A DNA stretch of 64,000 bases from Ornithinimicrobium sufpigmenti (GTDB lineage: Bacteria > Actinomycetota > Actinomycetes > Actinomycetales > Dermatophilaceae). This document shows, piece after piece, positions 33,158-35,824 of this stretch. The DNA lies in NCBI RefSeq assembly GCF_004322775.1, contig NZ_CP036403.1, positions 2,542,001 to 2,606,000 of the forward strand, in the 5' to 3' direction. A model generated the notes under the pieces. It was not told the origin of the DNA and did no database searches. It saw nothing but the letters and a program-made list of their open reading frames with translations. Numbering within the stretch: position 1 is the first letter of the stretch; each line of letters begins with the position of its first letter. The position numbers and the translations under genes were made by a program.

Positions 33158-33487
33158 GTGTCCACCCCCCACCCTTCACCCGAAGCCTCCCCTGCCCCAG
33201 GCCCGGGCCCGATGCGTCGGCGCGTCGAGCAGGCGAGCCGGCCGCTCCTGGAGCGGCTGGCGAAGCTGCCGGTGTGGCTGCCGTTCCTGCTGCTGCTGGT
33301 GCTGGTGCTGGTCGGCGGCTTCCTCGGGGGCCCGGTCGGCTGGGTCATGGTCGTGGCGGCTCTGCTGTTCATCCTCTGGCTGCTCTACCTCTCCTGGCCC
33401 CGGCTCACGCCGGTGGAGCGCCTCATGCGCATCGCCGTGCTGGTGATCTTCGTCGCCGTCGCCGTGACGCAGATCCTGCCGCGCTAG
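33158..33487 (+). CDS. DUF6703-type small membrane protein
   Basis: The protein has 109 residues. The N-terminus is Pro-rich and cytosolic (~1-35), followed by three hydrophobic segments ([48 protein letters not shown]). It is commonly found divergent from glyS in actinobacteria, which supports it as a real conserved gene; the role is unknown. GTG 33158 lies 6 nt after TAGGCT (33146-33151), a leaderless arrangement. Confidence 0.75.
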
Positions 33488-33503: not shown

Positions 33504-33567
33504 CGCGCCACACTTGCGGACACTCGCTGCTGTCGCAACGGTAGCGAGGAGCTGGAACCGTGGCGCG
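33504..33567. repeat. nested palindromic element, downstream copy (E1)
   Basis: This 64-bp element has outer arms CGCGCCAC/GTGGCGCG (8 bp) and an inner stem CTCGCT/AGCGAG around 14 nt, with symmetrical 11-nt spacers. It sits 22 bp beyond the stop of the DUF559 gene. The left portion matches the upstream copy at 34631-34700 (shared GCGACCGNGCCACAC, then TG and GACA), in the same orientation. Confidence 0.75.
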
Positions 33568-33589
33568 CTGCCGGCCGGGACCAGGGCGG

Positions 33590-34531
33590 CTAGGTCCGGC
33601 GCCCTCGCGACGACATCCGCGCCGCGGCCTCGACGAGCTCCCTGATCACCTCGGGCCGGTAGAGCTGAGCCCAGGTGATCCGGGCCACGCCGTAGCCCAG
33701 CCGCCGGATGCGGTCCTCGCGGGCCTTCTCCCGCACGAGCGACTCCCGCCCGGCCGCGTCCTCGTACTTCACCGCCCCGTCGAACTCCACCACGACGCCG
33801 AGATCCGGAAGGTAGAAGTCCACCCGGGCGACGAACTCACCGTCGTCCGTGATGACGCACTGCGGGCGGACACGGTAGCCAAGCAGGAGCAGGATGACGC
33901 GCAGGCCACTCTCGCCGATCGACTCGGCCGACGGGTCCGCGCGGTGGACGACCTGTCGCGCACGCGGCGTCCCCGTCGCCCCGGCCAGGTCCCGCAGCCC
34001 CTCCTCGAGCTGTGCCCTGCTGACCACCCTGGCCCGCAGTGCGGCGTCGGCCAGTCCTTGGGCGCCGATCTGGCTGCAGGACATGATCGCGCCGAGGACC
34101 GCCGCCACCGGCCCGACGCTCCACACGCCGCCCACCTGCCGGAAGCCGGCGCGCTCACCCGGGCACCGGTGCACCGTGAAGGCGTCCCGACGACGGCCGT
34201 GGCCCGACCCGGACCGTCTCGTCACGTGCACCATCTCGAGGTCGCTGGCCAGCAGCGGCAGCCCCAGCAGCACCGCAGCGCTCTGGTGGCTGGCAGCCAG
34301 GGTGGCGGGTGAGGTGGCCAGCACCGCCCGCAGCCGAAGCCGGTGCGCCTCCTCCGGGTCGGCCCGGGCCAGGCGCGCCGAGTCGGCGTAGCCACCTCGG
34401 CACACACGAGTCAGGGTCCCTGTCGCCCGTAGCCGCCGCAGGTCCGTGGGCCCCAGCCCGAGGTGCTCCGCCGCGGCCGCGGCCGAGAGCGCACCGCCAT
34501 GGGCGTCGAGATAGGCCCGGAGCAGCGACAT
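33590..34531 (-). CDS. AbiEi-like antitoxin-domain / DUF559 endonuclease-fold protein
   Basis: This 313-residue protein is common in actinobacteria. The N-terminal ~70 residues form a winged-helix AbiEi-type domain (SAAAAAEHLGLGPTDLRRL). The middle is AbiEi C-like. The C-terminal ~110 residues are a DUF559, Vsr/PD-(D/E)XK-like fold, with FVARVDFYLPDLGVVVEFDG and KAREDRIRRLGYGVARITW giving the Asp/Glu and basic residues expected of a nuclease core. No cognate AbiEii toxin lies next to it. Start ATG 34531. Two related nested palindromes flank the gene at 33504-33567 and 34631-34700, which suggests a mobile or self-linked unit. Confidence 0.8.
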   Translation of the reverse strand: MSLLRAYLDAHGGALSAAAAAEHLGLGPTDLRRLRATGTLTRVCRGGYADSARLARADPEEAHRLRLRAVLATSPATLAASHQSAAVLLGLPLLASDLEMVHVTRRSGSGHGRRRDAFTVHRCPGERAGFRQVGGVWSVGPVAAVLGAIMSCSQIGAQGLADAALRARVVSRAQLEEGLRDLAGATGTPRARQVVHRADPSAESIGESGLRVILLLLGYRVRPQCVITDDGEFVARVDFYLPDLGVVVEFDGAVKYEDAAGRESLVREKAREDRIRRLGYGVARITWAQLYRPEVIRELVEAAARMSSRGRRT

Positions 34532-34601
34532 GGACCACAGCGTGGCCCAGCCAGCGGGTTCAGCGCCCGGCATCGGCACATCCCTGTGGAAAACTCTGAC
34601 G

Positions 34602-34621
34602 CCTGCTCGCTCCGGAGCAGG
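34602..34621. repeat. small hairpin upstream of DUF559 gene
   Basis: CCTGCTC / GAGCAGG, 7-bp arms with a 6-nt loop, lies between the DUF559 start and the upstream nested palindrome. It may belong to the same structured unit. Confidence 0.4.
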
Positions 34622-34630
34622 TGTGGTCGC

Positions 34631-34700
34631 GACCGAGCCACACCTGGAGACAGTGGCCACCGTTGGAACGGTGGCCAGAACACCTATCCGTGGCTCGGTC
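34631..34700. repeat. nested palindromic element, upstream copy (E2)
   Basis: This 70-bp element has perfect 11-bp outer arms (GACCGAGCCAC / GTGGCTCGGTC) and a perfect 11-bp inner hairpin (TGGCCACCGTT-GG-AACGGTGGCCA), separated by 12-nt spacers on each side. It has the same architecture and orientation as the copy at 33504-33567. It ends 9 bp before the Zur box. Confidence 0.8.
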
Positions 34701-34709
34701 ATGGAGATT

Positions 34710-34724
34710 TGACAATCATTCTCA
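34710..34724 (+). promoter_or_regulatory. Zur operator upstream of znuA
   Basis: TGACAATCATTCTCA matches the actinobacterial Zur-box pattern (TGAtAATcATTtTCA-like). It lies 20 bp before the znuA ATG and overlaps the presumed promoter, so Zur with bound zinc would repress the operon. Confidence 0.8.
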
Positions 34725-34744
34725 TTCGCAGAACTCTTAGCGGT

Positions 34745-35824
34745 ATGACGCGACTCCCCACGGCCCCTGGCGGCCTCGCCGCACTCACCGCGCTGACTCT
34801 CATGCTGGGGCTGGCGGGCTGCGGCAACGGAGCCAGCGGTGGGACGAGCGGCGGCGCCGGGGGCGGCAACGGAGACGGCGGGAGCGCGGGAGGTGCAGGG
34901 CAGCTGTCTGTGGTCACCAGCTTCTACCCCATCGAGCACCTCGCCTCCCGGGTGGCCGGTGAGCACGCCGACGTCTCCACCCTCACCTCCGCGGGCGTCG
35001 ACCCGCACGACGTGGAGCTGACCCCGCGACAGGTCGCCGCGCTCGGGGGCGCAGACCTGGTCCTCTACAGCGCGGGCATGCAGCCCGTCGTGGACCAGGC
35101 GGTCGCGGCCGAGGCAGCCGATCAGGCCGTCGACCTGGCCCCGCACGCCGACCTGCTGCTGGTCGGGGAAAGCCCGCACGACCACGACGGCGACGGACAC
35201 GACGAGAGCGACCACGCGCACGACGACGAGAGCGACCACGCGCACGACGACGAGAGCGACCACGCGCACGACGACGAGAGCGACCACGGTCACGACCACG
35301 GCCCCGAGGACCCGCACTTCTGGCTCGACCCCGAACGGTACGGCCAGGTCGCGGAGGTCATCGCCGCCGAGCTCATCGCCGTCGACCCGGACAACGCCGG
35401 CAGCTACGAGGCCAACCTGGAGATCGTGCTCGCAGACCTGGAGGAGATGGACCAGGAGTTCGTCGAGGGCCTGGCGGAGTGCCGCAGCCGTGACCTGGTG
35501 ACCACCCACGAGGCGTTCGGCTACCTGGCGCACCGCTACGACCTGCGGCAGACCGGCATCACCGGGATCGCCCCGGACTCCGAGCCCTCCCCCGCGCGCC
35601 TCGCCGAGGTCGCCGGCCAGATCCGGGACCTGGACGTCCGTGCGATCTACTCCGAGCCGATCCTGCAGGACGACATCGCCCGGACGATCGCCAACGAGAC
35701 CGGCACCGAGGTCCTCACGCTCGACCCCGTCGAGGGCGTGACCGACGACTCCGCCGGGTCCACGTACGAGGAGATCATGCGGGCCAACCTCGCGTCGCTG
35801 CGCCAAGGCCTGGGCTGCTCATGA
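34745..35824 (+). CDS. znuA: zinc ABC transporter, substrate-binding lipoprotein
   Basis: This 359-residue cluster A-1 metal-binding protein has a lipobox LAGC (Cys ~27), then a Gly-rich tether. Zinc ligands are suggested by FYPIEHLASRVAG, GVDPHDVELTP, HEAFGYLAHRYDL and the C-terminal Asp region. A His/Asp-rich loop (~140-185) is built from three perfect DESDHAHD repeats plus a variant, and would gather zinc. The first gene of znuACB-zur; its stop overlaps znuC (ATGA). Regulated by the Zur box upstream. Confidence 0.93.
   Translation: MTRLPTAPGGLAALTALTLMLGLAGCGNGASGGTSGGAGGGNGDGGSAGGAGQLSVVTSFYPIEHLASRVAGEHADVSTLTSAGVDPHDVELTPRQVAALGGADLVLYSAGMQPVVDQAVAAEAADQAVDLAPHADLLLVGESPHDHDGDGHDESDHAHDDESDHAHDDESDHAHDDESDHGHDHGPEDPHFWLDPERYGQVAEVIAAELIAVDPDNAGSYEANLEIVLADLEEMDQEFVEGLAECRSRDLVTTHEAFGYLAHRYDLRQTGITGIAPDSEPSPARLAEVAGQIRDLDVRAIYSEPILQDDIARTIANETGTEVLTLDPVEGVTDDSAGSTYEEIMRANLASLRQGLGCS
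35201..35296 (+). repeat. 24-bp in-frame tandem repeat inside znuA
   Basis: Perfect 24-bp units start at 35201, 35225 and 35249, and a diverged fourth starts at 35273. Each encodes DESDHAHD. Copy number could vary by slippage without shifting the frame, changing the length of the zinc-collecting loop. Confidence 0.9.

Follow-up and report, generated by a model that had tools for sequence, protein, structure and literature searches.

The window analysed here, 64,000 nucleotides of the Ornithinimicrobium sufpigmenti genome (contig NZ_CP036403.1, positions 2,542,001 to 2,606,000), contains a nuclease-type gene that is bracketed by two related nested palindromes, E1 downstream and E2 upstream (Table 1). 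The pairing of gene and palindrome is a trait of the gene family; it is real, and it resembles the pairing of repetitive extragenic palindromic (REP) sequences with RAYT genes, with an unrelated protein in the place of RAYT. An earlier note, made from the sequence alone, had drawn this analogy, which is now supported by like pairs of flanks around homologous genes, by dispersed palindromes bound to gene clades, and by filled and empty sites. We consider it fairly probable that the locus represents a single unit of a system with two parts, an AbiEi/Vsr-like nuclease gene and its cognate bracketing palindrome, in which palindromes are copied by the mechanism proposed below. Genomes and loci are referred to by our G and L numbers.

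A nuclease-type gene between nested palindromes

Besides the form listed in Table 1, an alternative upstream start at 34573 would give a gene product of 327 amino acids (P0001). Pfam recognizes AbiEi_4 only, the product also matches AbiEi models in PADLOC, and its AlphaFold model (predicted local distance difference test score, pLDDT, of 94) matches PDB entries 6y8q (AbiEi), 3r3p and 1vsr. Across 43 aligned family sequences 12 columns are invariant, among them D252, E263 and D265. The predicted product has the winged helix of an AbiEi-type protein together with a Vsr-like PD-(D/E)XK fold and its conserved acidic core; as modelled, it is an AbiEi-like DNA-binding part fused to a nuclease part like those of Vsr and I-Bth0305I. 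Counting this gene, the O. sufpigmenti genome holds seven family members, the next best of which has 47% identity.

Upstream of the gene, E2 is built of an outer (34631-34641/34690-34700) and an inner (34654-34664/34667-34677) pair of arms, each perfect over 11 bp, and lies 99 bp from the start of the 313-amino-acid form (34531) and 57 bp from the longer start. On folding, its strands have z scores of -5.0 and -5.6, with none of 200 shuffles equally stable, and it is the only place in the window with nested stems of at least 9 + 8 bp, which were absent from all of 10 shuffles. E1, which starts 22 bp beyond the stop codon (33590), has outer arms of 8 bp (33504-33511/33560-33567) and inner arms of 6 bp (33523-33528/33543-33548), the latter lengthening on the plus strand if G-U pairs are allowed; it folds with z = -3.75 on the plus strand (0 of 200 shuffles) and -1.1 on the minus strand (27 of 200). 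Nested stems at the level of E1 (at least 8 + 6 bp) occur as often as expected by chance, with nine in the window and 1-18 in each of 10 shuffles, so that E1 alone is unremarkable and it is its likeness to E2 that sets it apart. The two elements align with a Smith-Waterman score of 37, against a 99th percentile of 35 for pairs taken across loci, and they share GCCACACNTGNNGACA, whose two perfect matches in the 4.17-Mb genome are exactly these; with up to two mismatches it has 95 genome matches, below the 132 of a reversed-pattern control. Checked against the sequence, the coordinates and nested architecture first described for both elements are correct, the perfect inner and outer stems of the upstream element are both present, and the sequence said to be common to the two is indeed shared.

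Palindrome pairs across the gene family

Homologous loci numbered 116, comprising 115 of the 132 places from a first search (17 were left out) and one from a second. Flanks could be tested at 115 of the 116 (one was too short) by aligning 350 bp upstream to 300 bp downstream. The median alignment score was 44 for flanks of the same locus and 22 for flanks of different loci, and 75 of the 115 same-locus scores reached the cross-locus 95th percentile, 64 the 99th. When the better of two orientations is taken, 79 of the 115 loci score at least 40, a value reached by none of 26 DUF6703 flanks, by one of 56 random stretches of the O. sufpigmenti genome and by two of 115 flanks shifted 600 bp outward. 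The concern that such elements might be missing around homologous genes is not borne out by these pairs. At the loci inspected, what aligns is for the most part palindromic, in stretches of about 60-110 bp that vary by locus; between the end of the upstream copy and the start of the protein match there are 32-241 bp, in most cases 75-160 bp. Scores are lowered at L037-L040, where the frame enters the downstream palindrome and the flank was taken from inside it.

Two palindrome types were modelled from within the genus, R1 from 12 gene-flanking palindromes and R2 from nine sequences. Pair type follows the gene tree (112 proteins; four of the 116 were too short): R2-type genes form one group (support 100/99), the window gene and two orthologues form another (100/100), and R1-type genes form two. 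The pair sequence itself is locus-specific. In the closest orthologue (G025, 88% identity) palindromes are present at the locus and GCCACACNTGNNGACA occurs on both sides with one and two mismatches, and the E1 motif is retained with two mismatches in the orthologue L032. The pair of the next orthologue (G006, 57% identity) differs in sequence from that of the window, although the two copies resemble one another (Smith-Waterman 88).

Beyond the genus, 77 of 80 named loci from GTDB genomes were usable. Forward alignments reached the cross-locus 95th percentile at 45 of the 77 and the 99th at 35, and reverse alignments reached the 95th at 48. Clear pairs were found in Janibacter, Knoellia, Phycicoccus, Enemella, Propioniciclava, Nocardioides, Arthrobacter, Cellulosimicrobium, Rhodococcoides, Flexivirga and others.

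Some loci differ in detail. At L037-L040 the TGA stop lies in the tip of the downstream palindrome (GTGATGCATCAC; GTGATGTATCAC in L038). In the distant paralogues L065, L066, L142 and L146 short tandem direct repeats replace the palindromes, and in L065 and L066 both sides are alike. The gene at L113 (G032) lies between direct repeats of about 250 bp (Smith-Waterman 421), which contain a TCCACAG site and a palindromic stretch and may stem from a recent duplication of the upstream region.

Dispersed palindromes

The R1 and R2 models were scanned against 31 congeneric genomes, with 150 candidates scored per genome. In R1, 26 of 33 base pairs have changes on both sides; palindromes of duplex DNA also yield such covariation, so that in R1 and R2 it shows palindromy that has been kept, not the production of RNA. 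R1 matches occur in 14 of the 31 genomes, and the matches listed mark 83 distinct places, 15 beside a family gene and 68 elsewhere (possibly 67, as L247 and L248 of G013 look like one site on two contigs). The single copies follow the gene clades in sequence: for 56 of the 68 the best match among gene-flanking elements is one of the same clade (permutation mean 26, maximum 39 in 10,000), and for 26 of 59 it is one from the same genome (permutation mean 6.5, maximum 17).

The association between copies and genes called for in the earlier note was found for both types, since dispersed copies are, with few exceptions, confined to genomes that have the cognate gene clade. At least two dispersed R1 copies are present in 10 of 10 genomes with the clade and in 2 of 21 without it (Fisher test, kinship ignored), the exceptions being G011 (eight strand matches, one place listed) and G028; two more genomes without the clade have a single strand match. 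R2 matches occur in 17 of the 31 genomes, with dispersed copies in 9 of 9 genomes that have the cognate clade and in 2 of 22 that lack it (Fisher test, kinship ignored), namely G021 and G005, the latter counted as lacking it although its related gene L055 has a weak R2 match. A few other genomes that lack the cognate clade have one to three strand matches. Three of the G028 copies have flanks in common with copies in G029, suggesting that the gene was lost there and relics stayed. With one element and its flanks as BLAST query (E 1e-10), further copies were found only in G006, G021, G026, G028, G029 and G030.

Within O. sufpigmenti itself, R2 marks both flanks of a paralogue at 3,140,545 and, among the matches listed, six other places; the core of the paralogue's pair, GTCATGSGTGAGCCGG, is exact in four of the six dispersed copies and one base off in the other two. 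An Arthrobacter gandavensis gene offers an independent case: its upstream element is found at both flanks of the gene and at five more places in that genome, and in none of seven related genomes at E 1e-5. The different palindrome types tend to have similar ends, ACT...AGT or ACC...GGT in the R1 and R2 models and E2; in E2, ACC...GGT lies one base pair inside the outermost pair. These like ends could be a shared processing signal.

A DnaA-box-like site upstream of the genes

Family genes are often preceded by TTRTCCACA, which we take to be a DnaA box consensus. Within 160-bp flanks it occurs in either orientation upstream of 69 of the 116 loci, and in none of the downstream or far-upstream flanks; its shorter form TCCACAG occurs upstream of 89, downstream of one and far upstream of three. 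Among 75 named loci TCCACAG was found within 300 bp upstream in 51 and downstream in none, and TTRTCCACA in 19 and none. Only 3 of the 68 single palindromes have TCCACAG within 160 bp. The site is thus frequent before genes and rare near single palindromes, and it accompanies the gene rather than the palindrome. As read from this motif, expression of the family genes may be tied to the initiation of replication.

A proposed mechanism

We infer that the palindromes are moved by the nuclease. According to excerpts of PMC7319586, AbiEi and Rv2827c of M. tuberculosis bind inverted repeats in their promoters but not those of each other, and by analogy a clade-specific reading of palindromes by the winged helix is plausible. 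In the mechanism that we propose, the winged helix would read the half-sites of the palindrome, as AbiEi antitoxins read inverted repeats, and the upstream copy would probably serve in autoregulation of the gene. The nuclease would nick or cut the palindrome when it is extruded as a hairpin or cruciform, for example at a replication fork; repair or strand transfer would then copy palindromes into new intergenic sites, and the same process would keep the two gene-flanking copies alike. The window gene may be a quiet member of the family, or its copies may have decayed.

Several observations weigh against this reading. A BLAST search with E2 in the 31 congeneric genomes returned, apart from E2 with its inverted arm, only the copy in G025 and two short, weak matches, and no dispersed copies, so that the window gene belongs to a family with dispersed palindromes and is itself without detectable ones. 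Single copies differ widely from the gene copies in the same genome (mean identity from 0.52 in G013 to 0.83 in G006), and recent dispersal is therefore unsupported; the G013 copies also fit the one modelled element of their own gene poorly. Dispersed copies are present in G011 and G028 (R1) and in G021 (R2) with no cognate gene among the fetched matches, and the zeros of the model scans are lower bounds. Within the family, 36 of the 115 loci score below 40, the orientation of the pair is direct at some loci and inverted at others, and 36 of the 77 named loci score below 36 in both orientations, many thus being without a detectable pair. At two single-copy sites there is no clear target-site duplication, and either gain or loss of the palindrome may have taken place.

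Sites of single palindromes and a possible regulatory role

The strongest alternative is a purely regulatory role, which we regard as unlikely. On this view an AbiEi-type autorepressor would have its operator in the upstream palindrome and its terminator in the downstream one, and the copies elsewhere would be its regulon or ordinary terminators. The promoter repeats bound by AbiEi and Rv2827c (PMC7319586, as excerpted above) agree with this, as do the usual position of the upstream copy and the good RNA folding of three of the four strands of the elements. Many single copies also occupy gaps between convergent genes, the expected place of a terminator: according to a crude gene caller, the 68 R1 copies are convergent in 38 cases, co-directional in 21, divergent in six, inside an open frame in two and unclear in one, and a sample of 20 R2 copies (from G000, G003, G010 and G021) is convergent in 10, co-directional in five, divergent in none and inside an open frame in five. 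However, the few copies in divergent gaps, counted with that caller and with no background rate, leave few candidates for a shared promoter. One convergent site that holds a palindrome in G028, G029 and G030 has, in four relatives without it (G017, G011, G026 and G003), only about 7-15 bp between the stop codons as judged by eye. Moreover, upstream and downstream copies are alike in locus-specific sequence, beyond what structure alone would give, and the sequence of dispersed copies follows the gene clade.

Filled and empty sites

The two-part system of nuclease gene and cognate palindrome has also to be set against a cassette in which the whole palindrome-gene-palindrome unit is mobile, in the manner of a homing element or of an insertion sequence (IS) with hairpin ends, single palindromes being remnants of decayed units. 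Among the DUF6703 loci of 30 congeners, whose gaps were judged by eye and with the help of a simple motif, three are filled, 25 are empty, one has another neighbour and one is ended by the contig. At the 25 empty loci a short gap (up to about 95 bp) is followed by a site like the Zur-box-like motif of Table 1 and a similar gene start; the G006 orthologue adjoins the same site. Filled and empty sites differ by a single added gene, so that, as in homing-endonuclease units, the gene is present or absent at an otherwise intact site. The comparison of filled and empty sites proposed in the earlier note therefore yields both states for the whole unit, and it does so for single palindromes as well, where, besides the convergent site above, a second site is about 100 bp longer in O. 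sufpigmenti than in G025.

A mobile cassette is nevertheless more doubtful still than regulation. There are no near-identical copies of the gene elsewhere in the O. sufpigmenti genome, R1 single copies exceed genes several to one, and there is no match in phage records and one in a plasmid collection. The trio that shares the filled locus also groups together in the 112-protein tree, which fits one old gain with losses. The earlier note had also offered a mobile or a defence unit; defence finds little support, as the gene, despite the PADLOC match of its product to AbiEi, has no AbiEii neighbour, and as the phage and plasmid records give no more than the one match.

We think it very improbable that the palindromes are dispersed by some other enzyme, for instance a recombinase or an IS transposase, with the gene as a passenger that is often caught between two palindromes. 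The copies in G011, G028 and G021, which have no cognate gene among the fetched matches, speak for it, but Y1_Tnp (RAYT-type), the one transposase family searched for, was found in 0 of 31 congeners (the control was positive in 5 of 14 known genomes), the pair sequence shifts with the gene clade, which a passenger would not explain, and the association of gene and copies holds for two element types and one Arthrobacter.

At L167 (G018) the gap between the DUF6703 gene and the ZnuA-type gene contains short repeated motifs, AATTTTCGTAG and CGCTGGACTGCG, and is otherwise empty. In the window's ZnuA-type gene (Table 1) a tandem repeat (35175-35306, spacing 12/24 bp) encodes a His/Asp-rich stretch that is probably a metal-binding loop.

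Table 1. Features of the locus, with positions in the window
Feature	Position	Strand	Basis or remark
E1, downstream nested palindrome, 64 bp	33504..33567		Sequence; fold; one of two perfect motif matches genome-wide
E2, upstream nested palindrome, 70 bp	34631..34700		Two perfect 11-bp arm pairs; fold; window scan
Nuclease-type gene	33590..34531	-	Predicted AbiEi-like winged-helix part and Vsr/DUF559-like PD-(D/E)XK nuclease part; 313 amino acids (P0002)
DnaA-box-like site TTTTCCACAG, variant of TTRTCCACA	34584-34593	-	Window gene carries the shorter TCCACAG form only
DUF6703 gene, left neighbour	33158..33487	+	Edge of the empty site; Pfam; present in 30 of 31 congeners
ZnuA-type gene, right neighbour	34745..35824	+	Pfam ZnuA on open frame 34463-35824; start codon picked by eye
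TGACAATCATTCTCATTC, which we take to be Zur-box-like	34710-34727		Before the ZnuA-type gene

Comparison with known systems

We found no earlier description of such a gene-palindrome system in the open-licence literature. In REP/RAYT systems, as set out in excerpts of PMC3116915 and PMC3733652, the gene is flanked by palindromes, the repeats are mostly extragenic, the repeat type is tied to the gene lineage and near-identical gene duplicates are absent. The window gene is likewise palindrome-flanked, as are 79 of 115 homologous loci by flank likeness, and dispersed copies are found in sister clades (68 listed) and, in O. sufpigmenti, for the paralogue's type (six), though none were found for the window gene's own element. 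The palindromes of the window family are about 60-110 bp long and number some 4-20 copies per match-rich genome (half of the strand matches), whereas REPs can number hundreds per genome. The family protein is AbiEi-like with a PD-(D/E)XK part and not an HUH Y1 transposase, and the R1 alignment (12 palindromes) shows no GTAG foot, its invariant columns giving ACT near one end and AG near the other. With a protein that is not HUH and no GTAG foot in the one type tested, the system is REPtron-like in anatomy but not by descent.

In TIRYT/TIRtron systems a tyrosine transposase gene is flanked by inverted repeats of its own type, which in some cases make up a dispersed family (excerpts of PMC3733652); they are similar in both respects, but they have an HUH enzyme, and Y1_Tnp was found in none of our 31 congeners. 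AbiE type IV toxin-antitoxin systems differ in that the window gene stands beside DUF6703 and ZnuA genes, both on the other strand, with no AbiEii (DUF1814) partner, so that it does not belong to AbiE; its protein has an extra nuclease part, and palindromes lie on both sides of the gene. Unlike Vsr/DUF559 endonucleases and the homing endonuclease I-Bth0305I, the nuclease part is here joined to an AbiEi-like part and the gene is bracketed by palindromes. CGTC-tagged palindromes are reported in the excerpted text of PMC3733652 as apparently having no dedicated transposase.

More broadly, we put forward as a tentative but real possibility that these loci represent a large undescribed class in the Actinomycetota, in which a Vsr-like nuclease would be directed by an AbiEi winged helix to a palindrome specific to its clade. 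The gene would co-evolve with its palindrome, the flanking copies being kept alike while single copies seed intergenic gaps and a DnaA-box-like site ties expression to replication; such a class would be a convergent counterpart of REPIN/RAYT, put together from parts of antitoxins and repair nucleases. It would point to a role for genes that now bear the annotation AbiEi antitoxin, DUF559 or very-short-patch-repair endonuclease, and it makes testable what holds a nuclease gene and dispersed palindromes together. In the excerpts cited above, REP/REPIN palindromes go with a single enzyme superfamily, HUH (RAYT); if an unrelated protein family also had dispersed palindromes that co-evolve with it, this would show that partnerships of this kind have arisen more than once.
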